Of a stretch of 44,406 nt of DNA, positions 12,513 to 42,479 are shown in pieces. Position 1 is the stretch's first letter. Each line of letters starts with the position of its first letter. Position numbers and translations under genes: made by a program. This DNA comes from a virus: IMG/VR virus record IMGVR_UViG_3300028590_000037, positions 1 to 44,406 of that record. One strand, given 5' to 3'. Under the pieces are notes generated by a model that ran no database searches, was not told where the DNA came from, and saw only the letters and a list, made by a program, of their open reading frames with translations.

Positions 12513-12513
12513 G

Positions 12514-19354: not shown

Positions 19355-19364
19355 GGTGGTAGTC

Positions 19365-20060: not shown

Positions 20061-20061
20061 C

Positions 20062-21861: not shown

Positions 21862-21865
21862 TGCT

Positions 21866-22507: not shown

Positions 22508-22519
22508 GGGAGGCTAGCT

Positions 22520-23101
22520 ATGTCATTTGATGCTATCTGGGACTCTGAGCGTCTTAAGTACGAGACAGTCTGGGGTGGCTATCCAGAGTATCGTACGCAG
22601 GCGGATGGGGACCCTGTGGTCGACTTGGCGTTCAAGCAGCTGGGGTGTAAGCCCGGGGAGTCGCTGATCGACTGGGGCTGTGGGAAGGGTACGCCCGCCC
22701 AGCGGCTACAGGCTAAGGGACTAAAGGTAACCGGCTTCGACATCGCTCGGAACTGCCTAGACAAGGATGTCAAGATCCCGCTGATTGTTGGGAGCATGTG
22801 GGATCCGCCACCGTGGGTTCAGCAGGCCGACTATGCTTTTTGTACGGACGTGCTCGAACACCTACCACCTGACCGGTTGGAGCTAGCCCTCTCGCAAATG
22901 TGCCGCCTAACGCGCAAGGCGGCATTCATACAGGTATGTACTGTATTGGATACGTCCGGGCCCAAGATGAATCCACCCATGCGCCTCCACCTAAGTGTGT
23001 ACTCCCACGAGTGGTGGGGTGAGCACCTAGCGGCGTACTGGACGATCGAGGACTCCGGCAAGCGTGGCAAGGCCCGATCCTGGTTCGTCTGTAGGAAGTG
23101 A
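22520..23101 (+). CDS. Class I SAM-dependent methyltransferase
   Basis: A 193-residue methyltransferase. Motif I is SLIDWGCGKGTPAQRL (residues 48 on), followed by VTGFDIARNC and the ADYAFCTDVLEHLPP motif. HLSVYSHEWWGEHL near the C-terminus links it with the methyltransferases at 5140 and in the 25990 fusion; similar proteins are seen in phage and capsule loci. The RBS is GAGGGAGG. The product would methylate a sugar or small molecule, by context. Confidence 0.78.
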   Translation: MSFDAIWDSERLKYETVWGGYPEYRTQADGDPVVDLAFKQLGCKPGESLIDWGCGKGTPAQRLQAKGLKVTGFDIARNCLDKDVKIPLIVGSMWDPPPWVQQADYAFCTDVLEHLPPDRLELALSQMCRLTRKAAFIQVCTVLDTSGPKMNPPMRLHLSVYSHEWWGEHLAAYWTIEDSGKRGKARSWFVCRK

Positions 23102-23104
23102 GTC

Positions 23105-23764
23105 ATGCATGTAGAACTCTACGGTCGTAAGATAGACTTAGGCGAACATCCCTCTAAAATGTGCCAGGCGCGTTGGGCGGGGCGCTATTCTCCTGAGCCC
23201 GAAACGGTTGGCTGGATCGAGACCCTCAGCCCCACGGGGGTGTTCTACGATATTGGGGCTAGTGTGGGGACGCATTCTATACGCGCAGCAGTTCATGGTC
23301 TATCGGTCGTGGCCTTCGAGCCTCAGTCGGATTTGGCCGAGGAGCTTCAGGAGACTGTTAGGCGTAACGACCTACCCATCGTAGTTCTCCCCCTAGCACT
23401 AAGTAACACACTGGGACGTGGCGTGCTCGGAGCAGGCCGCTCGACGCATACCTTCTATCACAAGGTCGGGGGTACAGTTACGGCCTCGACCGTGGACGAG
23501 TGCGTGGTCGCGTTCGGCTGTCCGAACTACATCAAGCTAGACGTGGACGGTAACGAGTTTGCTATCCTGCGAGGGGCAGCGGAGACCCTGCCTTTGGTAC
23601 GGTCGCTACTGGTCGAGATTGATCCGGCTATCCCCGGCCAGGATGACATTCCTAGCTATTTGGAACGGTTTGGGTTTACCTACAATCCCGCGCAGATTAA
23701 GCGGGACAAGATTACTACCGGTAAGTATGCCGGCACCGCCAATTGGATTTTCTACAGACCCTAG
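23105..23764 (+). CDS. FkbM-family methyltransferase
   Basis: A 219-residue protein with FYDIGASVGTHSIRAA (motif I), VVAFEPQSDLAEEL (motif II), and the FkbM signature NYIKLDVDGNEFAILRGAAETL followed by SLLVEIDP. FkbM enzymes O-methylate sugars or polyketides and are common in capsule and LPS gene clusters. It begins three bases after the previous stop. A second FkbM enzyme lies at 28460. Confidence 0.85.
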   Translation: MHVELYGRKIDLGEHPSKMCQARWAGRYSPEPETVGWIETLSPTGVFYDIGASVGTHSIRAAVHGLSVVAFEPQSDLAEELQETVRRNDLPIVVLPLALSNTLGRGVLGAGRSTHTFYHKVGGTVTASTVDECVVAFGCPNYIKLDVDGNEFAILRGAAETLPLVRSLLVEIDPAIPGQDDIPSYLERFGFTYNPAQIKRDKITTGKYAGTANWIFYRP

Positions 23765-23820
23765 ACATTGTATGTAACGGTGGGTGGCTGGAGTGCCAAA
23801 AAACACGAGGAGCTTAAGTT

Positions 23821-24327
23821 ATGGGAAGACGGGATGTTGCTACGAATACTGGGAATGGGAACCGGCAGATTACGGATATAGGTGCGACGGCCGAGCGGGT
23901 CACTCCTGATGACCCCCGGGTGGTATCGTTCCTTAACGATTACACGTCTATGCAGCGCCATCGGGACCAACTCCTGGGTATCGTCGAGCATCGGGACCTG
24001 GAGATTGCACGGCTCAATGATCGGGTCTCCCTACTCCAGCACGACCTGACGCGGACGCAGACCGCCCGCGATGAGTTCCAGAAGGGCTACTTCGAACTCA
24101 AGGCCCAGCTGGCTATTCTCACCACGTCAGCTATCTCAGCATGCGATCAGGTGCGGGTGGTGGCGGAACGAGCGTTGAGTTCGGCTAAGTCCGCGATGCT
24201 GGAGAACGGCATCGTGGAGGACGTCAATCAGGACGGGTCCCCCAAGCTGACCGATGTGGAGACGGAAATGGCATCGTTGGCGGCAGTAGCCAACGCAACC
24301 GGCGTTCCCGAGCGCGAGCAGGCGTAG
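23821..24327 (+). CDS. Coiled-coil hypothetical protein
   Basis: A 168-residue protein. The middle (RHRDQLLGIVEHRDLEIARL, NDRVSLLQHDLTRTQTARDEF) is predicted as a long coiled coil; the N-terminus is polar and the C-terminus acidic. The RBS GAGGAGC precedes ATG 23821. No enzyme motif is seen. Set among enzymes, it could scaffold them or be an independent phage protein. Confidence 0.6.
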   Translation: MGRRDVATNTGNGNRQITDIGATAERVTPDDPRVVSFLNDYTSMQRHRDQLLGIVEHRDLEIARLNDRVSLLQHDLTRTQTARDEFQKGYFELKAQLAILTTSAISACDQVRVVAERALSSAKSAMLENGIVEDVNQDGSPKLTDVETEMASLAAVANATGVPEREQA

Positions 24328-24332
24328 TACTA

Positions 24333-24371
24333 GCCTGGGCGGTGTGTACCCGCGCGCACCGCCCGGGGCTG
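24333..24371 (+). repeat. Strong GC hairpin before GT29-like copy 2
   Basis: GGGCGGTG (24337-24344) pairs with CACCGCCC (24357-24364), extended outward by AGCCT/GGGGCT with a wobble and one bulge, around a 12-base loop. No T-run follows. It separates the coiled-coil gene from the GT29-like gene and could be a transcriptional attenuator or RNA-stabilising stem. Confidence 0.5.
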
Positions 24372-24384
24372 GGAAAGGATTCCT

Positions 24385-25026
24385 ATGACAATAGCGGTGA
24401 TTGGGCATGGGCGTTCTCCGGAAGGTAAGAGTTGGGGCTCTAGGATAGATGTCTGTTCTACTGTGGTTCGGTGTTGGGACTGGCACTGGCAGCACCCACG
24501 TGACTTTGGATACCAATATCATTACGGGTTATTTGTACTCACCCCTAGAAACTTTCGACTATTTAGTGAGCACAATCAAAGACGTCCCGAGCGCGGGTGG
24601 CTTGTATACCTGGGTAAACCAACCTCCTGTCATCTACCGGATAGCTCGCAACTGGTCGACACCACCCGATGGTGTGACCTTGGACGGGCGCTAGGCGGGC
24701 AGGGGCTTAGTGGGGGCTTCACGCTCACGCGCGGGTGCGCTATGGCGGCCTGGGCTATAGAGCACGCTGGTAAGGGGGAGGAGGTTATCCTGGTCGGATT
24801 CGATAACGTGCTGTGTGGGATCAACAAGCCGATAGAGGAGTCCTTCTGCCCAGAGTACTGGGCTATGCAGAGTCTCTACTGGGACGAAAAGAAGACCGAC
24901 AAGATTTATCCTGTTGGCGAGGCCAAGACGGCCACGCATGATATGTCGGTGGAGAAGCCTTTGCTAGAAGCACTGGCATCTAGTAACAATGTGCCACTAA
25001 AATTCGCACAGGAGGTTTGGGAATGA
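24385..25026 (+). CDS. GT29 (sialyltransferase)-like protein, copy 2
   Basis: A 213-residue paralogue of the protein at 21866. The N-terminus IAVIGHGRSPEGKSWGSRID and VVRCWDWHWQ align with the sister's IIGHGLTPEGQGWGHRID and VVRMWNYHWQ; both keep EEVILVGFDNV-type and HDMSVEKPLLEAL-type segments. The second copy may act on a different acceptor or sugar position. The RBS is GGGAAAGGATT. Its stop overlaps the next gene (ATGA, 25023-25026). Confidence 0.62.
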   Translation: MTIAVIGHGRSPEGKSWGSRIDVCSTVVRCWDWHWQHPRDFGYQYHYGLFVLTPRNFRLFSEHNQRRPERGWLVYLGKPTSCHLPDSSQLVDTTRWCDLGRALGGQGLSGGFTLTRGCAMAAWAIEHAGKGEEVILVGFDNVLCGINKPIEESFCPEYWAMQSLYWDEKKTDKIYPVGEAKTATHDMSVEKPLLEALASSNNVPLKFAQEVWE

Positions 25027-25862
25027 AAGTAGCAGCATACATCTTGACTGGCAACGGTCACGCAGCGCTGACGTGCCCTGCTATGGTGGCAGGCGCACGG
25101 GCGCAAGGTGAGACGGTGGACATCCTGTCCGAGAAGCAATACAAAAAGGACCACGCTGACACGTACGACGCGGCTATCTTCTGGGGCTACGTCGAGATCA
25201 TGCAGACCATCATGAACGATTTTAACGCCCGCGAGAAGCCAGTGGTGTACCTGGACCTGGCCTATTGGGAGCGTGGCACCCACTACAAGGTATCTATCGG
25301 TGCTCGCCACCCCACCAAGTACTTCCAGAACTTCCCCCACAACGACTCCCGGCTACAGCGTTGGGGTGTGAAGCTAGAGTCCAAGTGGGTGGACGATGGC
25401 ACTATCCTGCTCGTGGGCATGGGGCCGAAGGCGGCCTGGGCCGAGAAGCAGGAACCGGTGGAGAGTTGGGAGAAGAACGCTATCGCCAACCTCAAGCGGT
25501 GTACCGACCGCCCCATTATCTACCGCCCCAAACCCAGCCAGCACTACGGCAAGCCTATTGCGGGAACTACGTTTGACGTTACCACCCCACTCGAAAAGGC
25601 TCTGCGGAGCAGCTGGGCGACTGTTACCCACCACTCGAACGTAGCTGTGGAGGGGGTGGTCCTAGGCGTACCCACGTTTGCGTGGAGCGGGGTGGCGGTG
25701 CCTATGGGGCTCCAGGACTTCGGTTGTATTGAGGTCCCCTACCGTCCGGACATCGACACGGTGCAGGAGTGGTTGAACGATGTCAGCTACTGCCAGTGGT
25801 CCATGGACGAGATGAAGGACGGTACCTGCTGGCGGCACCTTCGGTCGGAGGGGTTGGTGTGA
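25023..25862 (+). CDS. Capsule-synthesis-like GT-B protein
   Basis: A 279-residue protein related to capsule polysaccharide synthesis proteins (Kps-type), seen in IYRPKPSQHYGKPIAG and the donor-site-like ATVTHHSNVAVEGVVLGVPTFAW. It starts at ATG 25023 (ATGA overlap). The N-terminal third has VVYLDLAYWERGTHYKVSIGARHP, matched in the fusion protein at 25990 (FIYFDKGYFDRDKYWRLSIDGWQP), so the two are paralogous. It may transfer a sugar or sugar phosphate. Confidence 0.65.
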   Translation: MKVAAYILTGNGHAALTCPAMVAGARAQGETVDILSEKQYKKDHADTYDAAIFWGYVEIMQTIMNDFNAREKPVVYLDLAYWERGTHYKVSIGARHPTKYFQNFPHNDSRLQRWGVKLESKWVDDGTILLVGMGPKAAWAEKQEPVESWEKNAIANLKRCTDRPIIYRPKPSQHYGKPIAGTTFDVTTPLEKALRSSWATVTHHSNVAVEGVVLGVPTFAWSGVAVPMGLQDFGCIEVPYRPDIDTVQEWLNDVSYCQWSMDEMKDGTCWRHLRSEGLV

Positions 25863-25993
25863 CAGTGACCCTCTTTATCGCATACCTACTGCTATACATC
25901 CACGACTACTCGGTGTTGTGGTATATAGCCGTGTTCCTGCTGTGGCTCCTCCATCTTTCCGTAACGCACTCCGGAAGGATAGGTCACCAGTGA
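25859..25993 (+). CDS. Small membrane protein
   Basis: A 44-residue, highly hydrophobic protein (TLFIAYLLLYIHDYS, VLWYIAVFLLWLLHLSVTH) that spans the membrane once or twice. GTG 25859 overlaps the previous stop (GTGA) and follows GGAGGGG by about 7 bases. Its own stop overlaps the next gene's GTG (25990-25993), so it is tightly coupled between two GT-B genes. It may anchor these enzymes at the membrane, by position only. Confidence 0.55.
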   Translation: MTVTLFIAYLLLYIHDYSVLWYIAVFLLWLLHLSVTHSGRIGHQ

Positions 25994-27441
25994 ACTACCG
26001 CTTCGCGTTCTACCATTCGTCTAAGATACGTACCCAGATGTTTGGTAGAATGCTGGCGGAGGGTGCACGCCGTCACGGCGATACGGTAGATTTAATCCTA
26101 CAGGAGAACTTTCAACTCGACCACCTAGAGAAGTTCGACGGCGGGGCCAACCTGGGGATGGCGCTGGCCTGCAAACGGCTCATGGACGCCTACCGGGGAG
26201 CAGGACGACATTTTATATACTTTGACAAGGGCTACTTTGATCGCGACAAGTACTGGCGGCTGTCGATTGATGGTTGGCAACCGCTGTCCTACTTCCAGCG
26301 CTTTAAGCGCGGCCCAGACCGCATGAAGCGGCTCAACATCAAGCTTGGTGATCGTCGCAAGAGTACTGAAGGTATGAACATCGTGCTGGCGGGGGCCTGC
26401 CAGAACTATCATAACTTCTGTGACTTGCCTACGGTAACCGAGTGGTGCACGGATATTGCGAGAGAGCTCGGTGCTCACTCCTCGCATCCGGTGGTCTATA
26501 GGCCCAATCCCTCCTGGGCGATACGTCACGAGGACGAGTTCGCACCTATAGAGGGGACCACGTTATCACCCCCACAGGAGCCCTTCGCGCAGACGTTGGC
26601 CCGCTGTCATCTATTGGTCACCCATGGCTCGTCCGCAGCACTAGCTGCGCTGGCCCGGGGCATTCCGGTCTTTATAGTGGGTGACGGTATCTGTAAGCCC
26701 ATGAGCCCGAGTTGGCCGCAGTGGTGGCAGAGCGATGTTATTACACGTTGTACGATGCTGGAGCATCCGCACTGGCCTCATATGCGGTTAATCGAGCAGT
26801 TCTTTCAGGATGTGACCTACTGTCAATGGACCCCGGAGGAGTACCGCTCCGGGGTGGCTTGGGAGGAGGTGCGGTTGGCCCTGGCCTACCTACGGGGGAA
26901 GCCAGGGGAGGACACCCCCAATCAGATTATTCGCCAGTACCAGATCATGCATAAGTCCCAGAAGTACTTCCGGGGCCTAAGCGTCATGCAGTATCGGGAC
27001 GTTATCCAAAGTCTAATTAAGTCTACTAAGTCCCGTACCCTGCTGGACTACGGCTGCGGTAAGGGTGACCAGTATCTGCATCCCTACAAGGTTAACGAGA
27101 CTTGGGGCGTGAGTATTGCCCTCTACGATCCGGCAATAGGTCCCTATGCGGCACTACCTGCCGGTCGGTTTGACGGTATAATTTGTGTGGACGTTATGGA
27201 GCATGTTCCGGAGGCCGTGGTCCCGGATACCTTGCGGCAGATTATTGGCCTAGCGGACAAGTTCGTGTTCTTTGCGATAGCATCGGCCCCCGCAAACAAG
27301 AGCCTCCCGGACGGGCGCAACTGTCATGTCACTGTGCGATCAGAGGAGTGGTGGCGAGCACAGATTGCGGCTGTGGTACCTAAGCGCAGCCCCGTGCGGG
27401 TAGAGGTGATCGTGGTAGGGGCGGATGACGCCGATGACTGA
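25990..27441 (+). CDS. GT-B/capsule-synthesis-like domain fused to a methyltransferase
   Basis: A 483-residue bifunctional protein. Residues 1 to about 310 parallel the protein at 25023 (IYFDKGYFDRDKYWRLSIDGWQP, VVYRPNPSW, LLVTHGSSAALAALARGIPVF). Residues about 340-483 are a class I methyltransferase with LLDYGCGKGDQY (351 on), IICVDVMEHVPE and VTVRSEEWWRAQI. The methyltransferase subfamily is the same as at 5140 and 22520. The start is GTG 25990, preceded by GGAAGGATAGG. Fusion suggests transfer and capping methylation of the same glycan. Confidence 0.72.
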   Translation: MNYRFAFYHSSKIRTQMFGRMLAEGARRHGDTVDLILQENFQLDHLEKFDGGANLGMALACKRLMDAYRGAGRHFIYFDKGYFDRDKYWRLSIDGWQPLSYFQRFKRGPDRMKRLNIKLGDRRKSTEGMNIVLAGACQNYHNFCDLPTVTEWCTDIARELGAHSSHPVVYRPNPSWAIRHEDEFAPIEGTTLSPPQEPFAQTLARCHLLVTHGSSAALAALARGIPVFIVGDGICKPMSPSWPQWWQSDVITRCTMLEHPHWPHMRLIEQFFQDVTYCQWTPEEYRSGVAWEEVRLALAYLRGKPGEDTPNQIIRQYQIMHKSQKYFRGLSVMQYRDVIQSLIKSTKSRTLLDYGCGKGDQYLHPYKVNETWGVSIALYDPAIGPYAALPAGRFDGIICVDVMEHVPEAVVPDTLRQIIGLADKFVFFAIASAPANKSLPDGRNCHVTVRSEEWWRAQIAAVVPKRSPVRVEVIVVGADDADD

Positions 27442-28243
27442 TTTTACGGTGGTTACATCCTGCTCGCTGGAGGGTTGGGCTAGCTACGGTGCTAAGTTCG
27501 TAGATACGTTTTTGCAGTACTGGCCCAAGGAGGTTGCGCTTTTAATTATCTCCGAGGATGCGATTCCAGTACGGGAGTATACCACCCATTCCGTCTGTCA
27601 CCTGGACCTGGTTGGTAATTCAGCGCGGGCCAGGGACTTCCTAGCCCGCCATAGGGAACATGGCTGGACCCAAGGTGAGGCCGCCTCACCCCGCCCCCCG
27701 GGGATAGCTAGGCGGTGGCCTACCAACGCCGGTAAGAACTTCCGCTATGACGCCTATAAGTTCAGCAAGAAGGTCTTTGCCATAGAACTGGCTGCTGGTC
27801 GGCTGGATAGCGGTCGCCTGCTCTGGGTGGACGCTGACGTGATAACCTTCGCCCCGGTGCCTGCTGATTTAGCCACCACGCTCCTGCCGTGGGATGCAGC
27901 AATCTCCTGCCTCGCGCGCCCGGGTTATCACTCTGAGTGTGGCTTCGTAGGTTACAACTTGAACCACGTGGCTTGCCGTCCGTTTATTACTACCTTTGCG
28001 GATCTCTACGCAACGGATGCTGTGTTCGCCCTAGACGAATGGCATGACTCCTGGGTGTTCGATTACGTACGTAAGCTACTTAACACTCCTACCCACCATA
28101 TTCCGCACCGCTCCCAGTCGCATCCGTTTATCAACTCCGAGCTCGGTAAGTACATGGACCACTGTAAGGGCAAGCGGAAGAAGCTCGGTCGCAGCGTAGC
28201 CGTCGAGCAGGTAGTCCATAAGAAGATCACCTACTGGCAATAG
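27425..28243 (+). CDS. GT-A-like glycosyltransferase
   Basis: A 272-residue protein with the start FTVVTSCSLEGWASYGAKFVDTFLQ and DxD motif Asp136-Ala137-Asp138 in GRLLWVDADVITFAPV. FRYDAYKFSKKVFAI before it and SECGFVGYNLNH after it are typical of GT-A phage and viral transferases. It overlaps the previous gene by 17 bases; a second ATG at 27434 is an equal candidate because spacing to the AGGGG element is 3 bases for one and 12 for the other. Substrates are unknown. Confidence 0.68.
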   Translation: MTPMTDFTVVTSCSLEGWASYGAKFVDTFLQYWPKEVALLIISEDAIPVREYTTHSVCHLDLVGNSARARDFLARHREHGWTQGEAASPRPPGIARRWPTNAGKNFRYDAYKFSKKVFAIELAAGRLDSGRLLWVDADVITFAPVPADLATTLLPWDAAISCLARPGYHSECGFVGYNLNHVACRPFITTFADLYATDAVFALDEWHDSWVFDYVRKLLNTPTHHIPHRSQSHPFINSELGKYMDHCKGKRKKLGRSVAVEQVVHKKITYWQ

Positions 28244-28254
28244 AGGAGCACATA

Positions 28255-28488
28255 ATGTCTAATCCTGCACTAAACGTCGGTTTGTCCGTTGATCTGGTTG
28301 TGGGCCGGATCATAGACCCCCCTCTACAGGTACAGGCCAGTGTGCGGGGCCAGGTTATCATCCTGGGCTTCAGCAACCGAGAGACACAACAGGGGGTGGA
28401 GGTGTCATTCTCGGAGAAGGCAGCATCCGATTTGATTCAGCTACTAATGGAGACGGTTAATGTGGCAAAAGGTCAAGTTGGGCATTGA
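28255..28488 (+). CDS. Small hypothetical protein
   Basis: A 77-residue protein, apparently beta-rich (VGLSVDLVVGRIIDPPLQVQ, then VRGQVIILGFSN). GAGGAGC precedes the ATG. Its end overlaps the next start by 29 bases if that gene begins at 28460. No recognised family. Confidence 0.6.
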   Translation: MSNPALNVGLSVDLVVGRIIDPPLQVQASVRGQVIILGFSNRETQQGVEVSFSEKAASDLIQLLMETVNVAKGQVGH

Positions 28489-29146
28489 GGGACCTATGAA
28501 GATCGTGGGACAGTGGTACCTACCGGCAGCGGACAACTACTTTGGGCCCTTGCTCGAGCGCACGCCCGAGGGCTTTGAGATCGACCATCTAGAGTGTGCT
28601 CTTACGTTCGTGGAGAAGTTCGACGTTGCGATGGATGTGGGGGCACACATCGGTACCTGGACGGTTAGGCTGGCCAGGGATTTCAAGCAGGTCTACGCCT
28701 TCGAGCCCGCCCCCGACACCTACGAGTGTCTATCCAAGAATTGTGAGAGCTACGCCAACATTTCCCTAAGCCAGTCGGCGATAGGGGCTTATGGAGGTTA
28801 CGGGCGGTTGGATAACGACCCCACCCGTCAGGGTAACACGGGTGCGCGTATCCTGCGTGGAATTAAGGGGGAAGGTAGTGTTAAGGTATCTACGTTGGAT
28901 AGCTTCGGGCTTAAGGTGCTGGATTTTCTCAAGATTGACGTGGAAGGATACGAAATCGGAGTATTACAAGGGGGCGTACAAACCCTACGGCGCTGCCGTC
29001 CGGTGGTGTTGCTAGAATGTAAGGAGTTTGTGCCTCCACGCTACGGCGGTGTTATGGCAGCTGTAAAATTCCTGGGGGCCTTGGGCTTCACCAAGGTGGG
29101 AGGTATTCGTAATGACTGGGTGTTCCGGCATCAGCGGTTGGAGTAG
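28460..29146 (+). CDS. FkbM-family methyltransferase
   Basis: A 228-residue protein with VAMDVGAHIGTWTVRLA, VYAFEPAPDTYECL and the FkbM signature VLDFLKIDVEGYEIGVLQGG, then PVVLLECKE. It is the second FkbM enzyme in the window and only moderately similar to the one at 23105 (family motifs shared). ATG 28496, after GAGGGA, is an alternative start. It probably O-methylates a sugar; the presence of two suggests two methylation positions. Confidence 0.83.
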   Translation: MWQKVKLGIEGPMKIVGQWYLPAADNYFGPLLERTPEGFEIDHLECALTFVEKFDVAMDVGAHIGTWTVRLARDFKQVYAFEPAPDTYECLSKNCESYANISLSQSAIGAYGGYGRLDNDPTRQGNTGARILRGIKGEGSVKVSTLDSFGLKVLDFLKIDVEGYEIGVLQGGVQTLRRCRPVVLLECKEFVPPRYGGVMAAVKFLGALGFTKVGGIRNDWVFRHQRLE

Positions 29147-29866
29147 ATGCGAGAATCGATCTTTGTTGGCTTTGATCCTCGGGAGGCTGCGGCCTTCTTG
29201 GTGACGGTGAGCTCTATACGTCGTCACCTATCCCGCCGGATAAGTATTGTGGGGTTGGAGCTAGATGACCTACGGCGTTCAGGCCTCTATACCCGCCCCA
29301 CAATCTTTAATAACGGTCGGTTACTTGATACTATTTCCGAACATCCTATGTCCACCGAATTTGCTATCTCCCGCTTCCTGGTACCTACGCTTGCTGGGAA
29401 AGGTTGGGCATTGTTTCTAGATTGCGACATGCTGGTATTATCGGACCTGGCAGATTTGTTTGACCTTGCGGACGATCGCTACGCCGTGATGTGTGTTCAG
29501 CATAACCACGACCCCAATAATACTACCAAGATGGGTGGGCAGTTGCAGTCTACCTACTTCCGCAAGAATTGGTCGTCAGTCTGCTTATTCAACTGTGACC
29601 ATCCGGCTAATAAATCATTGACTACGCATTTGGTTAATTCCGCACGGGGGCTACACCTCCATCAGTTCTGCTGGCTGGAGGATAAGGATATTGGAGCCCT
29701 ACCATCAGAATATAATTTCCTGGTAGGAACCGACACACCTACCGACATCCCGCCTAAGATTGCTCACTATACGGAGGGAACGCCCGATCTACCGGGATAT
29801 GAGACGGCTCCCTATGCGGATTTGTGGCGTTCTGAACTTAGAAAATCAGCGCATCTATTTCTGTGA
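29147..29866 (+). CDS. GT8-like glycosyltransferase
   Basis: A 239-residue GT-A enzyme with IFVGFDPREAAAFLVTVSSI, the DxD motif Asp92-Cys93-Asp94 in GWALFLDCDMLVLSDL, WSSVCLFNCDHP, and the C-terminal HYTEGTPDLPGY that matches the conserved His of GT8 family proteins. The metal-binding set looks complete. It follows the FkbM gene directly. It is the clearest glycosyltransferase of the island. Confidence 0.85.
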   Translation: MRESIFVGFDPREAAAFLVTVSSIRRHLSRRISIVGLELDDLRRSGLYTRPTIFNNGRLLDTISEHPMSTEFAISRFLVPTLAGKGWALFLDCDMLVLSDLADLFDLADDRYAVMCVQHNHDPNNTTKMGGQLQSTYFRKNWSSVCLFNCDHPANKSLTTHLVNSARGLHLHQFCWLEDKDIGALPSEYNFLVGTDTPTDIPPKIAHYTEGTPDLPGYETAPYADLWRSELRKSAHLFL

Positions 29867-29987
29867 TAAGGGGCTTTACGGGTATAGTGATCCAGGGTAC
29901 ATGCGGTAATGCTGACCTAGTGTATAAGCAAAAGCAAGAAAACGTCGTTAGGGTCTCAGCGCGTGCGGTAGCATCTAAATTGGTATC
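29867..29987 (+). other. Intergenic gap
   Basis: This 121-base gap is AT-richer than the flanking genes. I see no strong hairpin, T-run or convincing promoter in it; a GGTATAGTG segment near 29880 is the closest to a -10 box. It ends the glycosyltransferase operon proper and may hold a promoter for the genes that follow. Confidence 0.3.
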
Positions 29988-30179
29988 ATGATCTCCATGT
30001 GGGCCGGCAAACCGTTCTCGGAGCTTAACGATACTGAGCTTGAAGAAGCTACGGCGTTCTTTCAGGCTGCTCACGATCGCTTGATTGATTTTGCGCCCAC
30101 CCCGGTGTGGGTGTTCCTGGTGGATCAGATTTCCCTCCTCACGGTGCTTAAGGTACAGCGCCTGAAGCCCGCTGCATGA
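29988..30179 (+). CDS. Small hypothetical protein
   Basis: A 63-residue protein (MISMWAGKPFSELNDTELEEA...) with an N-terminal helix and a hydrophobic second half (TPVWVFLVDQISLLTVL). No good ribosome site precedes ATG 29988 (an ATG at 29997 is also in frame), but its stop overlaps the next ATG (ATGA, 30176-30179), which favours a real gene. Confidence 0.5.
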   Translation: MISMWAGKPFSELNDTELEEATAFFQAAHDRLIDFAPTPVWVFLVDQISLLTVLKVQRLKPAA

Positions 30180-30730
30180 AAGCGCTGGTCTTCGGGCGCG
30201 GGCGTGGGGTGTGGGATGAGATGGCTGCGGCGCAAAAGCTAGCAGCGTTTGATTGTATAATCGGGGTAGGTTCTGCTGCCGTAGACTATTCGGGTCCACT
30301 GGATCACTGGGTGAGCTTTCACCACAGCGTATTCCCGGAGTGGGCCGCCGCGCGTTCCCGCAAGGGTCTTCCCCCAGCGCGAGTCTATTGGTCATCAGTC
30401 TATCGCGGCTCACAGTCGGTACGCCTTGGGGCCGCCTACCCCGTCCGGTTCGTCCGCCAGGAGGGTGGATCGTCGGGACTGATTGCTGTGATGGTGGCCT
30501 TTGAACTAGGGGCCCATCGCGTGGTCCTAGCGGGAGTGCCCATGGATGGGGACTATGGGCAGTATGATACTAAATTGCCTTGGAAGGAAGCTTTGATCCA
30601 CCGAGAGATATGGCGTAGGGATTTACATAAGTTACTAGGTCGGGTGCGTTCGATGTCAGGCTGGACCCAGGAGCAGCTAGGCACCCCGACCACTAAATGG
30701 TTGCTGGAAAATGACTGTACTGCAGTTTAG
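30176..30730 (+). CDS. DUF115-like short protein
   Basis: A 184-residue protein with ALVFGRGRGVWDEM, FDCIIGVGSAAVDYSGPLDHWVSFH, and GGSSGLIAVMVAFELGAHRVVLAGVPMDG. This order is that of the DUF115/Maf-like fold: a phosphate-binding glycine loop, then a GxxA helix, then a GxxMD loop. It is much shorter than the protein at 5718. It could help move an activated sugar; the reaction is unknown. Its last 20 bases overlap the minor head gene. Confidence 0.6.
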   Translation: MKALVFGRGRGVWDEMAAAQKLAAFDCIIGVGSAAVDYSGPLDHWVSFHHSVFPEWAAARSRKGLPPARVYWSSVYRGSQSVRLGAAYPVRFVRQEGGSSGLIAVMVAFELGAHRVVLAGVPMDGDYGQYDTKLPWKEALIHREIWRRDLHKLLGRVRSMSGWTQEQLGTPTTKWLLENDCTAV

Positions 30731-32715: not shown

Positions 32716-33150
32716 GTGACCGAAGAGACGGACGTGCACCAGTTCGAGGTTGTGAAGGTCGAGCCCTCCCTGGGCTTGGTCTTCGGCTGGGGTATTATCT
32801 GCAAGGTCGACGGCCAGGACTACTACGATCGCAATATCGATAAGGATACCGGTAAGCGCGTACCGGAGCACATCCCCGAGACTACTATGCTGGAGGCCGC
32901 CTCCGATTTCATGGAGAACTCCCGGGTCGCCAAGGAGATGCACAAGGGTGAGCCCAAGGGTAGCGTGGTGTTTGCCTTCCCGATGACCACGGAGATTGCT
33001 AAGTCGCTTAAGATCGCTACGCCGATCACGGGTCTGCTGGTGGCGATGAAGCCCACGCCCGAGGTGCTTAAGAAGTTTGAGTCCGGGGAGTTCACCGGCT
33101 TCTCGATCGGGGGCTCGACCTCCAAGTTCGAGGACATCGACAGTGAGTGA
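32716..33150 (+). CDS. XkdF-like prohead protease
   Basis: A 144-residue protein of the XkdF family of putative phage serine proteases: LGLVFGWGIICKVDGQDYYDRNID, IPETTMLEAASDFMENSRVAKEMH, SVVFAFPMTTEIAKSL and GLLVAMKPTPEVLKKFESGEFTGFSIGG. XkdF-like enzymes process head proteins during procapsid maturation. GTG 32716 follows AAGGTGG. It overlaps the next gene by 8 bases. The protease next to a motif-bearing protein is relevant to the idea that the motif is processed. Confidence 0.82.
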   Translation: MTEETDVHQFEVVKVEPSLGLVFGWGIICKVDGQDYYDRNIDKDTGKRVPEHIPETTMLEAASDFMENSRVAKEMHKGEPKGSVVFAFPMTTEIAKSLKIATPITGLLVAMKPTPEVLKKFESGEFTGFSIGGSTSKFEDIDSE

Positions 33151-35245
33151 TAAAGCCAAGCGCCGCATCCTACACAAGATCAAGCTCACCGAGATTAGTG
33201 CGGTGGACCGGCCTTGTCAGGAACACGCGCGCATGGTCATCATGAAGCGTGAACTGTCCGACCCCCCGGTGACGGTGGAGACTTCCTCGCTCGAGGCTCG
33301 TATTAAGAAGCTCAATACGGCTACCACCAGCATAAGCCTACAGAAGGTATTGGTTGGCTTGCAGGAGGCTGAGCGCACGTTATACAAAGCGGGGTTTCGC
33401 TCAGACCAGGTGCGGGACGAAGAGGGTCAGTGGACTGATGAGGATTTTGGCTTTAATGAATTGAACGACGAAATCCGTGATGATGAGATCAACTTCGACT
33501 TTGATTCGATTGATGACGCGGGTTGGGAGCGTCTAAGCAAAATCATAGACGAGGATGACGGAACGTTCCAAGGTCGGCGCGTACTGCCTGATCTGTCCGA
33601 CAGCAGCTGGTCGGGAGACTCCTCGTTCGACAGAGTGCTGGACAAACCTACTGCGAAGCCTGCTACGGCTGCGCCACCCACACGGGCTAATACCAATTAC
33701 AAGGGCAAGCTTAGACGGGTTGCGGTGGCGGTTGGGCGGAGCACTGTTGCGGCATTGAAGGTCCTGGGTCTGCTTAGTGCGGCAGGAGTTGTCACGTTTG
33801 CTACTATTAAGGCAGCAGGCGTAATACGAACAATGAAGGTCGCCCCCTCTCAGATGCTTAAGCGTAAGGGCTTAGACTTAACGGGAATCACTGAAGAGCA
33901 GGCCAAGCGGGTGTTGGCCCAGCTTCCCGAGTTGTTGTCCAACGCGAAAGCAGCAAAAGCCGTGTCAGTCATCCGCTACGCTGGTCGTCGAACTAAGATG
34001 GTGGGCAAGGTGGAGATAGTCCGTCGCGCCGATCAACTCCTACAAAAGTTCGACCCCAACCAGGCCCGGGACGATTGGGGGCGTTGGTCGGACGAAGGCG
34101 GCGGGGACGGACCGGGCGGTCGGTTCCAATCTGATTTTGATGATGTCTTTGGTGGTGAAGCTCCCAAGAATAGTAAGGGCCGCTTCCGCCGTGTGGTGAG
34201 CAGCATCGCGCGTGGGGGAATGACAGCTGTTAGGATTATCGGTGCCCTGGCCACGGCCGGGGTGCTCGGGGCCTATGTGGTACAGCAGTCGGGTCTACTC
34301 CGTAGTAGGACACCGTCAAATAGTAGCAAGAAGCCAGAGTTTAAGTCAAATTTTCCTGAGCGCCAGCCCAAGCCCACGTCGGTGCCGAGTGTCGGTGGCA
34401 AACCAAAAGGTTCTGTGGCCTACCCAGATACTCCTTGGGGCAGCGCTAGGGCTGTAGGTGGTCTTGCTAGAGATCTTTACAATTTTAATCGGCATTTATC
34501 TAAGTTTGACACGTCCGGTATTACCGAGGAGCAGGCTCGCAAGCTCCTAGAGGAGATTGCGGACCAGATCACGGAGGAGGACGCGGCCAAGGTGTTGGCG
34601 GCGTTGAAGGGTAAGGACCTGGGCAAGTTCGATCCTGATCAACCTCGCGCCGATGACGGTAAGTGGACCGATAGTGGTGGTGGATCGAGCAGCACCGCTA
34701 GCGGTGGGGGTGCGAAGGGTGGGGCTAGTAAATTAACTGGCAAAACCAGAGAAAACTTTAGAACTTTTCTAACCTCGGTGGGCGGTGGGAATCCGGGAAG
34801 TGAAGAGGATATAGATAAGGCGTGGGGGTACTTATCCGCAAAGGATAAGCAGTATTTTACTGTTGGTAGGTTTGACCGCGTGCGGCACGTATTACGACAG
34901 ACTGGCAAGACCGCTAAGATTGCCGTGGGCGTACTAGGAGCTCTAATGTGGGGAGTAATAGGACTTGCGATGTATGCGCAGTCGCGGCAGCAACGTGGAT
35001 TAGGACGAAGGGGTCCCAGACCGGCTAATTATGGTGGTCCGTGGAAAGGGCCAACGATGGACCTGAAGTCAACGAGCTCCCGGCTTATGGGCAGGGACCT
35101 GGTCCCGTATCGATCAATGTCTAAGCAACTTAATCTTGAGCAGTTGTCTGAGGGGGAGGCCGAGCAAATTTTGATGGAAGTACTTAGCCGTGCTACTCCC
35201 CAACAGATTGCGGAGTTTGAGGCTGCTTTGAAGAAGGCAGCTTAA
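33143..35245 (+). CDS. Large modular protein: three linker motifs and three hydrophobic segments
   Basis: A 700-residue protein starting at GTG 33143. The N-terminus has KLTEISAVDRPCQEHARMVIMKR, commonly seen next to XkdF proteases. Three modules follow, each opened by a linker motif at residue 82 (degenerate: FRSDQVRDEEGQW), 302 (FDPNQARDDWGRW) and 495 (FDPDQPRADDGKW). Each module has a basic region and one hydrophobic helix (AALKVLGLLSAAGVVTFATI, IIGALATAGVLGAYVV, IAVGVLGALMWGVIGLAMYA) and ends with an ITEEQA-type helix pair (ITEEQAKRVLAQLPELL, ITEEQARKLLEEIADQI, LSEGEAEQILMEVLSRA). I know no family with this build. A head protein whose membrane-active parts are delivered with the DNA is an inference. 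Confidence 0.7.
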   Translation: MSDKAKRRILHKIKLTEISAVDRPCQEHARMVIMKRELSDPPVTVETSSLEARIKKLNTATTSISLQKVLVGLQEAERTLYKAGFRSDQVRDEEGQWTDEDFGFNELNDEIRDDEINFDFDSIDDAGWERLSKIIDEDDGTFQGRRVLPDLSDSSWSGDSSFDRVLDKPTAKPATAAPPTRANTNYKGKLRRVAVAVGRSTVAALKVLGLLSAAGVVTFATIKAAGVIRTMKVAPSQMLKRKGLDLTGITEEQAKRVLAQLPELLSNAKAAKAVSVIRYAGRRTKMVGKVEIVRRADQLLQKFDPNQARDDWGRWSDEGGGDGPGGRFQSDFDDVFGGEAPKNSKGRFRRVVSSIARGGMTAVRIIGALATAGVLGAYVVQQSGLLRSRTPSNSSKKPEFKSNFPERQPKPTSVPSVGGKPKGSVAYPDTPWGSARAVGGLARDLYNFNRHLSKFDTSGITEEQARKLLEEIADQITEEDAAKVLAALKGKDLGKFDPDQPRADDGKWTDSGGGSSSTASGGGAKGGASKLTGKTRENFRTFLTSVGGGNPGSEEDIDKAWGYLSAKDKQYFTVGRFDRVRHVLRQTGKTAKIAVGVLGALMWGVIGLAMYAQSRQQRGLGRRGPRPANYGGPWKGPTMDLKSTSSRLMGRDLVPYRSMSKQLNLEQLSEGEAEQILMEVLSRATPQQIAEFEAALKKAA
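33386..34684 (+). repeat. Three copies of the linker motif in the modular protein
   Basis: Copies begin at 33386, 34046 and 34625 (residues 82, 302, 495). The second and third are preceded by a lysine (Q-K-F-D-P or G-K-F-D-P) and end in GGG. The second follows IVRRADQLLQK, nearly identical to the ALRRADRLLVK before the first motif in the protein at 39870. Confidence 0.8.
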
Positions 35246-36673: not shown

Positions 36674-37666
36674 ATGCCCGAAGCTAGCAACATTCAAGGC
36701 ACGTTGCACATCGACCGCTACCTGACAAACTACTCAGTGCGGTTCGTGCAGGACGCCAACAACTTTGTAGCGCAGCGCGCTGCAAGCTTGATCCCGGTGC
36801 TGAAGGCGACCGACAAGTACGTCGTGTACCCACGCGGCTACTTCTGGCGGGACGAATCGGCACCCCGCGCTCTGGGCAATCGCCCTAGGCAAATCGGCTA
36901 CAAGGTCGACGAGGGCAGCTACTCCTGCACCGAGTACGCCTTGGAGCACGTGGTTGATGATCGGCAGTATGCCAATACCGACGATCCCATCAACCTCGAC
37001 GAGAACGCAACCGTCCTGCTCACCGGCAAGAACGTCATCAAGCAGGATCGCGTTTGGGCGCAGAACTTCTTCACCACCGGCAAGTGGACAAGTGAAGTGG
37101 TTGGCGTCGTGTCGTCCCCCGTGGCAGGAGTCTCGCTCCTGAACTGGACGGACGCCAACTCGGACCCGATCGGCGACATCGACTACTACAAGGACTACAT
37201 GCACGAGCGCACCGGCTTCATGCCGAATACGCTGGTGCTGGGCGCCAACGTCAAACGGCGTCTGCGGTCCCATCCGGACATCGCCGACCGCATCAAGTAC
37301 ACCCAGATCGGTATCGCGGACGAGGCGATGCTGGCTGCGTTGTTCGAAGTCCAGAACGTGATGGTCGCTCGTGGCATCTACAATGCTGCAGACGAGGGTG
37401 CTACCGACGACTTTCAGTACATCGCGAACAAGGACTCGATGCTGCTGGCCTATATTGAGCCCAATCCGGGCCTCGACCGGCCGACCGCCATCGCGAACTT
37501 CGCCTGGACTGGGCTGTTGCCCGGTGCCACCAATGCCATCGGTGGTGTGATGGAGCGCGGCCGGGATGACCGAGCCCACTCCAACTACTTCCAGAACCGC
37601 ATGGCCTGGGATCTGCGTCAAGTCTCTGCCGACCTGGGCGTGTTCTTCAACGACGTCATCGCCTAA
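36674..37666 (+). CDS. Major capsid protein
   Basis: A 330-residue protein with the order of many siphovirus capsid proteins of the HK97 fold: LTNYSVRFVQDANNFVAQRAASLIPV, DKYVVYPRGYFWRDE, a helix-rich middle (VVDDRQYANTDDP, LLTGKNVIKQD), then GFMPNTLVLGANVKRRL, HPDIADRIKY and ending near GVMERGRDDRAHSNYFQNRM. It is placed after decoration and scaffold. It forms the icosahedral shell. RBS GGAAGGGA (about 36657-36664). Confidence 0.87.
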   Translation: MPEASNIQGTLHIDRYLTNYSVRFVQDANNFVAQRAASLIPVLKATDKYVVYPRGYFWRDESAPRALGNRPRQIGYKVDEGSYSCTEYALEHVVDDRQYANTDDPINLDENATVLLTGKNVIKQDRVWAQNFFTTGKWTSEVVGVVSSPVAGVSLLNWTDANSDPIGDIDYYKDYMHERTGFMPNTLVLGANVKRRLRSHPDIADRIKYTQIGIADEAMLAALFEVQNVMVARGIYNAADEGATDDFQYIANKDSMLLAYIEPNPGLDRPTAIANFAWTGLLPGATNAIGGVMERGRDDRAHSNYFQNRMAWDLRQVSADLGVFFNDVIA

Positions 37667-37699: not shown

Positions 37700-38107
37700 A
37701 TGACGGTAGCTCGTGGCAGGTTCTTTCGACCCGATTTTGACCGGGGCCAGGACTTTGTAGTAGTCCGACCGTTCCAGTTCAACGGCAAGGGCTACCACCC
37801 CGGTCAAACTCTCGACAAGGGTCTGTTCGTCATGCGGAGGCTACGGCAGCTTTACGATCAGCGTGTGATCAATCAAGTTGACCCAGCCCCCGCAGAGACG
37901 AACGGCTTCGATCATGAGTTCAACCGTGGCGCACCTCAAGAAGGGCCTCCTGCTCCCAGCCCGGGAGTGGAAGAAGCACCTACGCCTGATCGGCAAGAGG
38001 ATCTTCTGGAAGCGGCACCGCTCGAGGGAGCGGCGCATCAGCCAGGACGAGTCCCGCGCCGCGCCCCGGGAGGACGTGTCCCGCGCCGTAGGGTTGGGGC
38101 GGGATGA
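37700..38107 (+). CDS. Hypothetical protein after capsid gene
   Basis: A 135-residue frame. ATG 37700 is about 9 bases after AAGGA; ATG 37691 is one base after it and so less likely. The N-terminal 70 residues (RGRFFRPDFDRGQDFVVVRP, LRQLYDQRVINQV) look like a folded protein; the rest is Pro/Arg-rich (GGRVPRRRVGAG) and low in complexity. The stop forms ATGA with the next ATG (38104). Another frame opens at 37914 inside it and has more natural codon use, so the C-terminal half may not be the main product there. Confidence 0.55.
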   Translation: MTVARGRFFRPDFDRGQDFVVVRPFQFNGKGYHPGQTLDKGLFVMRRLRQLYDQRVINQVDPAPAETNGFDHEFNRGAPQEGPPAPSPGVEEAPTPDRQEDLLEAAPLEGAAHQPGRVPRRAPGGRVPRRRVGAG

Positions 38108-38141
38108 TGGTCTCTCTACTCGAGAGCCAGTTCAAGGCTAG
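37914..38141 (+). CDS. Nested overlapping frame encoding a basic protein
   Basis: A 75-residue frame (MSSTVAHLKKGLLLPAREWK...) overlapping the preceding gene by 194 bases in another frame and the next gene by 38 bases. Codons use G or C at the third position almost throughout, as in neighbouring genes, and the product looks like a compact basic helix protein (LRLIGKRIFWKRHRSRER). There is no strong ribosome site, which lowers confidence. It could instead arise by frameshift from the upstream gene. Confidence 0.45.
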   Translation: MSSTVAHLKKGLLLPAREWKKHLRLIGKRIFWKRHRSRERRISQDESRAAPREDVSRAVGLGRDDGLSTREPVQG

Positions 38142-38502
38142 GATTGCCAAGGCTTTCAAGGGCAAGTTGTTGCGTGGCACCTTCCGCCGATCGGTGGAGT
38201 CCACGCAGGACTCCTTCGGGGACTTGGCCACACCCACCGTGACGTCCTTCAGCTTTGAAGGCATCCGGGAAAGCTTCTCTGCGCGCTACAAGGCACAGTC
38301 TGGCATACCGGAGTCGGACGTCTCCATCCTGATCCTCGTAGGCTCGGTTAAGCCGCCGACGGTCTTCACTGAAGCCGACCAGGACCAGATGGTCTTCATG
38401 AGTACGCCGTGGAACGAGTGGTACAAGATCCGGCGCGTGCTCGAGATTGATCCAGCGGGGGCCAGCGTTCGGCTGCAGTGCTATGAAGTCCCTGCCCCAT
38501 GA
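38104..38502 (+). CDS. Head-tail connector/head closure-like protein
   Basis: A 132-residue protein with LLESQFKARIAKAFKGKLLRGTFRR, SFSFEGIRESFSARYKAQSGIPESDVSILILVGS and WYKIRRVLEIDPAGASVRLQCYEV. These fit the small beta-barrel proteins that follow the capsid gene in siphoviruses and close the head or join the tail. ATG 38107 is an equal start. It overlaps the GcrA-like gene by ATGA. Confidence 0.7.
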   Translation: MMVSLLESQFKARIAKAFKGKLLRGTFRRSVESTQDSFGDLATPTVTSFSFEGIRESFSARYKAQSGIPESDVSILILVGSVKPPTVFTEADQDQMVFMSTPWNEWYKIRRVLEIDPAGASVRLQCYEVPAP

Positions 38503-39020
38503 CAATCGAATTCCTACCGCTAGCCCCAGTCCACCCGGCCTATGATCCTAAGGCTGGGGTCTGGTATCTGGAGGAGAATGGAGTGGTCTCGCTCGAGGCT
38601 CCAACGTTGATGGCGTTGAGCCTGCTCCTACCGGAGGGTACGGCGATTGTCGACTACCATCCCGATGGCTACAAGACGACCCGGGGTGCCCAACCGCTAG
38701 GACGACCTAGTCTTAGACCACTGCTTACCAAGTTCCGCTCTCGGGGTGTACCCAAGCCCCGCCCCGCGTGGGTTCAGCCCAAGGTGGTGGTTCCTAAGCT
38801 GGCAACCGGAACCCAACTGGTGACTAAATGCGGGGTGCCCCGCATAGATAGAGGGGTCTTCCCCTGGTCCCCAGCAGAGTTGGGAATCCTACGGTCGATG
38901 CGCGCGGACGGGTGTTCGGCCACGGTTATTGCTGATGAGCTTGGTCGCTCCCGCAACAGTGTAATCGGTAAGATGTTCCGCCTAAAGCCCAAGGTCAGTG
39001 ATGTCTGTCAAGTGGAATGA
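38499..39020 (+). CDS. GcrA-like helix-turn-helix protein
   Basis: A 173-residue protein. Residues about 123-163 (WSPAELGILRSMRADGCSA, TVIADELGRSRNSVIGKMFRL) match the N-terminal DNA-binding domain of GcrA, the alphaproteobacterial cell-cycle regulator that works with CcrM methylation at GANTC (WT....LW..G.SA..IA..LG..SRNAVIGK...L). Residues 1-120 are unrelated and proline-rich. Here the domain is C-terminal, not N-terminal as in GcrA. It lies between connector genes, so late expression is likely. It could modulate host cell-cycle genes, or be a connector gene with an added DNA-binding domain. Confidence 0.7.
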   Translation: MTIEFLPLAPVHPAYDPKAGVWYLEENGVVSLEAPTLMALSLLLPEGTAIVDYHPDGYKTTRGAQPLGRPSLRPLLTKFRSRGVPKPRPAWVQPKVVVPKLATGTQLVTKCGVPRIDRGVFPWSPAELGILRSMRADGCSATVIADELGRSRNSVIGKMFRLKPKVSDVCQVE

Positions 39021-39869: not shown

Positions 39870-41846
39870 ATGACTGCTAGCGTCGCACTTCGTCGCGCTG
39901 ATCGGCTGCTGGTCAAGTACGACCCGGACCAGCCCCGTGCCGATGACGGCAAGTGGTCGGAGACCGGTGGTGGCGGTAGGAGCGGTAAGACCCGTAAGAA
40001 TCCACACACCCCGAGAGGATATAAGTCTGATGAGCATGGCATCTATATCGAAGTAAAGCCAGGCATGTCAGAGACAAAAAAGACTTTGTTGCACCTAGGC
40101 TTGGCAGCTGGAGTTGGCTACGGGGTGTTTGGTCCTCCTGGCGCGGTAGCAGGGGTGGCGTGGGTTGGTACGGCACTTGGTGTCAAGTATCTTTGGGACA
40201 AGGCCCACCAGCGGCGTTGGCAAAGGGCTTATGCCAAGTGGGAAAGCTGGGAAAAGGAGCACGGTAAAAGAGAGAAGATGCTGTACCGACCGTTGAGCAA
40301 AGCTGAGGATTTGCGAGCCAAGATTCGCTCGTTGAACACTGATCAACAAAAGAAGATTTGGGAGTTTTTTGTTGAGGAGTTGTCTGAAGACGAGGCCACT
40401 GACTTGGTGGGACGTCTGAAGAAGTTCGACAAGGGTGGAACCAAGCGTGCGGACAAGTTGCTCCGTCTCTCCAAGACGCTGGGCAAGGACGCCACGGTCA
40501 AGGATTGGATTGACGATTTTGTTAATTCTGACAACCCACGCTTCGACGGCAAGTCCAAGAAGGAGCGGATCCGCATGGCGTTGGGCGCTTACTACAGCAA
40601 GCGCCTGGAGAAGGCAGGCTTCAATCCTGACCAGCCCCGTGATGCGGAGGGGCAGTGGTCGGACGCTGGTGGGGCCGGTAGCCTGCTCGGTAGTGCCGAG
40701 GCCAAGGCATCGGGGCGGATGAATATACTCGATCCGAACTCCATCTTTGAAGATGTGCTTGGTGGAGGGCCTCGGCAGAAGCCGTTAAGTGAAAGAGATT
40801 TTGAGGGTATGAATGAGCGTGAAAAAAGCATCGTTCGCTCCGATGTCTATAATGAATTGGGCAGGCTTAAGGATAGTCGTGATTATCAAAAGCAGCGTGA
40901 GGCAAGAGCAACTCTAACAAGGTTAGATGAGGCGTATAACCAACGCAATCGAGCAAAACAAGATCAGATTATCGGTGACTATTGGAAAGAATGGAATAAG
41001 TCGAAGACAGAGACACTCGCACGTACTCGAATGGAAAACGCTGATGTCATCGAGTCGTCGGTTCGTGAGTCCGGCAATCTTGGCTTCGATAAGCCACTTA
41101 AGTTTTTTGAGGACAGGGAGCTAGGCGCGCTACGTAGGGGTGCATCGGACTCATCGGCGAAGGTAGCTCAAGCTTCCACGGCCGGTCGGGTCTTGCTGGA
41201 TGTACTACGCACGGCGGCGGGTGAGACCACTCCTGAAGTGGTTGGCAGGGCATCGGCTGTATTGGGGGCACTGACGATTCTCGCAGCTGGTATAAACGTC
41301 GCTTCCAAAGCCAAAAACGTTGACACTGGTGCGGCGGCCGTTCGTACCATCCACGATGGTGTTGGGCTTGTGCGTAGCTCCATACCAGGGTTGATAAGTT
41401 CATCGAAGACGGCATCCGCCGACCTTCAAAACAAAATTAGCTCCTGGGCTAGCCGCGCAACGGCTGCGCTTAAGTCCGCAGAAACTACGCTCAGCCGGTC
41501 ACAGGCGTTAACGTCTATGCGTCGAACAGCAACCCAGGCAACGGGTGGCTCGTTCTCTACGGTTCCTTCGATAAGCGTACCCCGCATCAGCCGTTCCTAC
41601 ACCCCACCGCCACCCCGGCTTCCAACTTCAACTAAAACATCGACGATTACGATGACCCCCTATTCTTCCCCATATTCCTCATTGTACACCACCCTAAGTC
41701 CAAGAGTAGCTAATACTATCAATCCACCTACGGTGATTCATAAACCATCCTACATGCGGCCGTACAGCGTAAGTGGGAGTCGTAAGTACACGCTAAAACG
41801 CCTTGAAAAGCTTCTCGCCCGTGCGCAGGGGCGAGCACGGGCCTAG
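39870..41846 (+). CDS. Large modular protein with two linker motifs
   Basis: A 658-residue protein with linker motifs at residue 16 (KYDPDQPRADDGKW) and 248 (KAGFNPDQPRDAEGQW). Between them is a glycine-rich hydrophobic helix (LGLAAGVGYGVFGPPGAVAG), a basic helix and LSEDEATDLVGRLKKFD, like the ITEEQA helices of the protein at 33143. After the second motif comes a charged, AT-rich segment (40760-41060) with RNRAKQDQ, and a hydrophobic stretch (ASAVLGALTILAAGINVA, about 465-482). The tail (530-640) is Ser/Thr/Pro-rich. Base composition shifts sharply within it, so the parts may have different origins. Unknown family. Confidence 0.68.
   Translation: MTASVALRRADRLLVKYDPDQPRADDGKWSETGGGGRSGKTRKNPHTPRGYKSDEHGIYIEVKPGMSETKKTLLHLGLAAGVGYGVFGPPGAVAGVAWVGTALGVKYLWDKAHQRRWQRAYAKWESWEKEHGKREKMLYRPLSKAEDLRAKIRSLNTDQQKKIWEFFVEELSEDEATDLVGRLKKFDKGGTKRADKLLRLSKTLGKDATVKDWIDDFVNSDNPRFDGKSKKERIRMALGAYYSKRLEKAGFNPDQPRDAEGQWSDAGGAGSLLGSAEAKASGRMNILDPNSIFEDVLGGGPRQKPLSERDFEGMNEREKSIVRSDVYNELGRLKDSRDYQKQREARATLTRLDEAYNQRNRAKQDQIIGDYWKEWNKSKTETLARTRMENADVIESSVRESGNLGFDKPLKFFEDRELGALRRGASDSSAKVAQASTAGRVLLDVLRTAAGETTPEVVGRASAVLGALTILAAGINVASKAKNVDTGAAAVRTIHDGVGLVRSSIPGLISSSKTASADLQNKISSWASRATAALKSAETTLSRSQALTSMRRTATQATGGSFSTVPSISVPRISRSYTPPPPRLPTSTKTSTITMTPYSSPYSSLYTTLSPRVANTINPPTVIHKPSYMRPYSVSGSRKYTLKRLEKLLARAQGRARA
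39915..40682 (+). repeat. Two copies of the linker motif
   Basis: Copies begin at 39915 and 40611. The first is preceded by RRADRLLVK, also found (RRADQLLQK) before the second copy in the protein at 33143. The second copy is nearly identical to the first motif of the ART protein (KAGFNPxQPRDxxGxW). Confidence 0.8.
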
Positions 41847-41999: not shown

Positions 42000-42479
42000 A
42001 TGGCAGGTATCTTCGCAACTGCTGGTGCACGACTGTACATCGGCGGCTCGCTGGCGGCTCAGACTACGGACTTCGTCCTCGGTGACTTCTCAGGCCAGTC
42101 CTGGGTAGCGGTCAACTGGATGGAGAATATCGGCTCGTTCGGCGACGAGGCCACTTCCATCACCTTCGACGCGATCGAACAGCAGCGTACCCAAAAGCTC
42201 AAGGGTACCCGTAACGCTGGCGACATGTCGCTGGTTTGCGGTATCGATTATGAGGACGCCGGTCAGATCGCGATCCGGGCGGCAGAGGCCACCCCCAACA
42301 ACTACGCCTTCAAGGTGCAGTTCAATGACGCGCCGCAAGCCGGCACGCCCTCCGAACGCTATTTTATCGGTCTGGTGATGACCGCACGTGAGGTGTTGGA
42401 TACAGCCAACAACGTCATGAAGTTGAATGCCACCATCGGCATCAACTCCAATATCGTGCGGGTGAATGCTGCCCCATAA
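42000..42479 (+). CDS. Major tail tube protein
   Basis: A 159-residue protein: ATAGARLYIGGSLAAQTTDFVLGDF, a middle EDAGQIAIRAAEATPNNYAFKVQF and a C-terminal ERYFIGLVMTAREVLDTANNVMKLNATIGI. This is the beta-sandwich tail tube family seen in siphoviruses and gene transfer agents. It polymerises into hexameric rings. It lies between terminator and chaperone genes, as expected. Confidence 0.83.
   Translation: MAGIFATAGARLYIGGSLAAQTTDFVLGDFSGQSWVAVNWMENIGSFGDEATSITFDAIEQQRTQKLKGTRNAGDMSLVCGIDYEDAGQIAIRAAEATPNNYAFKVQFNDAPQAGTPSERYFIGLVMTAREVLDTANNVMKLNATIGINSNIVRVNAAP

Follow-up and report, generated by a model that had tools for sequence, protein, structure and literature searches.

Why does a phage carry, between two genes for connector proteins, a gene whose product ends in a domain resembling the DNA-binding domain (DBD) of GcrA? 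We addressed this question in the virus record IMGVR_UViG_3300028590_000037 (positions 1 to 44,406), and the window referred to throughout is this whole stretch of 44,406 bases. The answer that we consider rather likely is that the gene is an acquired, accessory one, placed between the head closure gene Hc1 and the tail completion gene Neck1 in the late operon, and that it most plausibly encodes a DNA-binding regulator. We refer to it below as the cargo gene.

The cargo gene overlaps both of its neighbours

The gene lies 3' of the gene for the major head protein and 5' of that for the major tail protein, in the following setting:

36674..37666, + strand: major head protein, the query for finding relatives (phrog_1005, E 3e-77)
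38104..38502, + strand: head closure Hc1 (phrog_161, E 8.5e-6)
38499..39020, + strand: inserted cargo gene, 173 aa, ATG start, with a C-terminal GcrA-type helix-turn-helix (HTH) (open frame; absent at the junction in relatives)
39001 (or 38998)..39408, + strand: tail completion protein, Neck1 (phrog_5, E 5.9e-18; start from alignment with relatives)
42000..42479, + strand: major tail protein, end of the connector cluster (phrog_158)

The codon-usage log-odds of the annotated frame was 0.09, against -0.14 to -0.46 in the five other frames over 38499-39020. A contig whose DNA is identical to the window (L001/L055) encodes the full 173-aa protein unchanged, and two near-identical contigs (L015 and L056) each cover the gene in part only. 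The first-pass annotation had placed the gene between two connector genes, and the profile matches agree, with Hc1 (phrog_161) upstream and Neck1 (phrog_5) downstream. In the window sequence, the Hc1 stop and the start of the cargo gene overlap as ATGA, and Neck1 starts inside the 3' end of the cargo gene, giving an overlap of 20 bases. With both neighbours overlapped, the gene does not have the promoter and terminator of its own that define a classical moron. Since these overlaps leave no intergenic room on either side, we regard it as cargo within an operon rather than as a classical autonomous moron.

Other features of the window were recorded along with this locus. An FDPDQPRDxxGxWxxxGGG-like motif is found in three otherwise different large proteins, encoded at 468-2987, 33077-35245 and 39870-41846 (3, 3 and 2 copies, respectively), where it may serve as a tag for processing or for targeting to the capsid. 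The protein encoded at 468-2987 matched an ADP-ribosyltransferase family (PF03496, E 9.6e-8) and the Alt-like RNA polymerase ADP-ribosyltransferases (phrog_802, E 2.5e-8). Enzyme-like genes form a long run (17493-30730) within a region of structural genes. One of them encodes an aminotransferase (18278-19354) and another a radical SAM/SPASM protein (20249-21202), and several more look methyltransferase- or glycosyltransferase-like by eye. Three large proteins are encoded within 7384-16287, two of them with many near-identical TPAQGNLTLSTxAPxV-type repeats.

The C-terminal domain is closest to the DNA-binding domain of GcrA

The cargo protein divides into three parts:

38499..38678, + strand: acidic N-terminal region, residues 1-60 (low-confidence model, beta-beta-alpha-beta-beta; without detected relatives)
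38679..38858, + strand: basic proline-rich linker, residues 61-120, predicted unstructured (composition, AlphaFold2)
38859..38987, + strand: GcrA-type HTH, residues 121-163 (Pfam, PDB sequences, AlphaFold2 helices, Foldseek)

In Pfam, residues 123-163 aligned to positions 3-44 of GcrA (PF07750) with E 2.2e-4 and 22.1 bits, below the curated cut-off of 26.9 bits; the runner-up families were HTH_20 (E 0.024) and HTH_38 (E 0.045). GcrA was the sole match in NCBIfam, at a score of 19 vs an equivalog cut-off of 280, and phmmer against PDB sequences returned GcrA only, over residues 122-162 (5yiu, E 0.0018; 7ye1, E 0.023). AlphaFold2, run on the single sequence, predicted helices at residues 125-136, 141-148 and 152-161 with pLDDT of about 76-84, the remainder of the model lying below 50. 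Foldseek against the PDB ranked the GcrA DBD (5yiu) first, with a probability of 1.00, a TM-score of 0.78 on the target, an rmsd of 1.0 A, 40% identity and an E-value of 0.12, which is weak because the HTH domain is short. Judged by eye on the phmmer alignment, the recognition helix reads SRNSVIGKMFRL and closely resembles TRNAVIGKVHRL of GcrA, and the turn ahead of it has one residue fewer than in GcrA. Among the phage protein families of PHROGs, the cargo protein matched phrog_16311 (E 1.3e-7) as well as phrog_323, a D5-like regulator (E 1.2e-5), and weak matches in BFVD include phage proteins labelled GcrA-like and SANT-like.

The likeness of this HTH to GcrA exceeds chance. That the C-terminal residues resemble the GcrA HTH had been proposed in the first-pass annotation, as had the placement of the domain at the opposite, C-terminal end of a larger protein. 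Both proposals stand: the domain occupies residues 122-163 of 173, and the HMM search assigned it to no other HTH family, GcrA being the best match by Pfam, NCBIfam, PDB sequence and PDB fold.

The weaker matches include the HTHs of the Tc3 and IstA transposases and HTH_38, and the insertion sits at a gene junction. These observations would fit a gene left behind or carried along by a mobile element, its HTH having once been part of a recombinase or homing endonuclease. However, GcrA outscores the transposase-type HTHs, a Pfam search of the cargo protein for a nuclease or recombinase domain found none, and the gene is intact, with clean overlaps with its neighbours. We regard such an origin as very improbable.

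The layout of the protein is reversed relative to GcrA

Caulobacter crescentus GcrA (PF07750; 5yiu, 5yiv, 5yiw, 7ye1, 7ye2) has the same length as the cargo protein, 173 aa, and the two HTHs are ~40% identical over 42 residues. GcrA consists of a DBD (residues 1-45), a linker (46-107) and a sigma-interaction domain (108-173) (PMC7403470). In the cargo protein, by contrast, the HTH is C-terminal and only ten residues follow it, the N-terminal region is unrelated to C. crescentus GcrA, and the sigma-interaction domain has no counterpart. No sequence match between that domain and the N-terminal part was found by Pfam, NCBIfam or PDB sequences. The cargo protein shares the HTH with the GcrA family but has neither the N-terminal DBD nor the sigma-interaction domain, and it scores below the family cut-off. 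Because the order is reversed and so little follows the HTH, we do not class the protein as GcrA; rather, it carries a GcrA-type DBD.

The remainder of the protein consists of the linker, which holds 13 K/R, 1 D/E and 9 P over residues 61-120, and the N-terminal region. The N-terminal 118 residues gave no Pfam match, and the N-terminal part matched nothing in named phages or viral contigs. The whole protein and both halves found only copies of the window phage among viral contigs and nothing among genome contigs, in scans that depend on exact peptide words and may therefore miss distant relatives. A tblastn search of phages and plasmids gave only weak matches, either to the HTH or by chance. 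A HicB/DUF1902-type N-terminus was a by-eye impression that no test supported, and it is not claimed. No relative is known for the N-terminal two thirds, and the regulator reading draws on the HTH.

GcrA homologues of phages have been proposed to act as sigma70 cofactors, as host GcrA does (PMC3556154), and the cargo protein might be an activator of this kind, with the N-terminal region in place of the sigma-interaction domain. It has the length of GcrA and comparable parts (a folded part, a basic linker and a DBD) in reverse order. Set against this are the failure of the N-terminal part to match the sigma-interaction domain and an NCBIfam score far under the equivalog cut-off, and we find a GcrA-type activator highly doubtful.

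A phage gene of the GcrA type is not in itself new, since such homologues are in the literature: gp222 of phiCbK, among the phiCbK-like phages, reported as a homologue of GcrA proper that belongs to pfam07750 (PMC3556154), gp5 of Agrobacterium phage Atu_ph08 (PMC6630229) and gp57 of cyanophage Pam5 (PMC9382816). All three resemble the cargo protein in being phage-encoded with a GcrA-type domain. Unlike phiCbK gp222, the cargo protein falls below the pfam07750 cut-off, has the reversed layout and is encoded in the connector cluster. What is new is this reversed layout and the place of the gene as swappable cargo in a connector operon. The HTH is also held in common with phrog_16311, phrog_323, phrog_20648 (dCMP deaminase) and phrog_16747 (weak, E 0.094), and the likeness is confined to it in all four; by profile position, it is internal or near the C-terminal end in the last three.

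Relatives carry varied genes, or none, between Hc1 and Neck1

The first relatives found were five contigs whose major head proteins share 69-76% identity with that of the window, and more were added through head and neck alignments. In 19 sampled relatives, Neck1 comes directly after Hc1 with no cargo gene, joined by an ATGA or GTGA overlap in 14 of the 19 and by slightly different joins in five. Two of the relatives (L010 and L013) have the Neck1 start overlapping the Hc1 stop as ATGA, and this same ATGA starts the GcrA-like gene in the window. Since Hc1 runs straight into Neck1 in these 19 relatives, we take the cargo gene to be an insertion in the lineage of the window phage. A search with the HTH profile covered the ORFs of 128 loci, which overlap in part and so represent fewer independent phages; it found only the window-phage copies and the named phages that had been chosen for such an HTH. 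A single phage lineage is so far known to carry the cargo gene, and its presence there and absence at the same junction in relatives is the pattern of moron-like cargo.

Other relatives have other genes at the junction: a weakly methyltransferase-like ORF (L019), a DUF6716 glycosyltransferase with a methyltransferase (L021), two small ORFs (L012) and a predicted Arc-like DNA-binding protein (L058, 6682-6978; 19.4 bits vs a cut-off of 20.4). In a further four (L037, L040, L041 and L047), tail genes precede Neck1. The Arc-like protein is like the cargo protein in its predicted DNA binding and in its place between Hc1 and Neck1, whereas its fold, a ribbon-helix-helix, is unrelated to the HTH.

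The first-pass annotation had also suggested DNA binding at the head-tail joint, and a virion protein binding phage DNA there would suit both the position of the gene between Hc1 and Neck1 and the predicted DNA-binding domain. A connector or virion gene should be kept at the junction in relatives that have the same connector genes; this one is missing from relatives that retain Hc1 and Neck1, such as L010 and L013, and enzymes or other regulators stand in its place elsewhere. This varied, non-structural cargo and the relocation of Neck1 in some relatives argue against a structural role at the joint, and we give that suggestion next to no weight. Judging from sequence comparison, the gene is probably optional and its product is probably not part of the virus particle.

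The gene annotated 'endonuclease VII' just before Neck1 in Erythrobacter phage ZS04 was set aside, since its product fell into no Pfam family and no likeness could be seen. The loci L037, L040, L041, L047 and L012 have mutually similar small ORFs (about 61 aa) directly 3' of Hc1, of which that in L012 weakly matched phrog_6725. Near the tail genes of L037, L040 and L047 are minus-strand ORFs of a CNKHYxxxxxYGDPL type, HNH endonuclease-like by eye.

The host context fits GcrA biology

By major head and portal proteins, the nearest named phages infect Erythrobacter, Roseobacter and Rhizobium, all of them Alphaproteobacteria; a search of genome contigs with the major head protein returned nothing. 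In Alphaproteobacteria, GANTC is methylated by CcrM and GcrA responds to it (PMC3667746), and the host context, as judged from the nearest named phages, fits GcrA/CcrM biology. GANTC occurs 82 times in the window vs about 165 expected, making it the most depleted of the 16 palindromic pentamers, and it is likewise depleted in related loci. The intergenic gaps of the window hold 10 sites vs 6.7 expected, a slight excess that is not significant. In Roseobacter phage RDJL Phi 2 (L132, 41756-54787), one GANTC was observed vs 71 expected in the stretch examined.

One special case of a late-operon DNA-binding regulator is a GcrA antagonist, which would bind methylated GANTC promoters by means of its HTH, be unable to recruit sigma70 because it has no sigma-interaction domain, and displace host GcrA late in infection. 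The nearest domain being the GcrA DBD (by Pfam, PDB and Foldseek), the similar recognition helix, the missing sigma-interaction domain, the alphaproteobacterial hosts of the nearest named phages and the depletion of GANTC are all consistent with it. On the other hand, the turn before the recognition helix is one residue short, GANTC is not significantly concentrated in the intergenic gaps, and its depletion is general across the phage group and requires no such protein. We hold an antagonist to be unlikely.

A candidate late regulator in a slot for optional genes

We infer DNA binding, late expression and a regulatory role for the cargo protein from its sequence and setting. The overlaps with Hc1 and Neck1 lead us to expect late transcription and co-translation with the structural genes. 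As a regulator encoded in the late operon, the protein would thus be made late, alongside the structural proteins; its C-terminal HTH would dock onto DNA with the help of the basic, flexible linker, and the small N-terminal domain may add a second function, perhaps dimerisation or partner binding. Late in infection it would then adjust transcription of the host or of the phage, and it would not become part of the virion. An adjustment of host cell-cycle transcription is possible; the missing sigma-interaction domain, the match below the family cut-off and the finding of no GANTC-specific evidence speak against it. A bolder version, which we think quite unlikely, is that of a mirrored GcrA-like protein with a new N-terminal domain, a linker and the DBD at its C-terminus, made late and without a sigma-binding domain, that would read methylated GANTC and block or redirect the host GcrA/CcrM programme. 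The Hc1-Neck1 junction would then be a slot in which this phage group exchanges regulators of this sort, of the GcrA type here and of the Arc type in L058.

If methylated GANTC were bound, an epigenetic cell-cycle mark of the host would be read by a phage protein that has no activating domain, a testable case of a phage GcrA antagonist. The junction between Hc1 and Neck1 is a site for optional genes in the head-tail gene cluster of this phage group, which explains why a seemingly out-of-place gene is found among connector genes.
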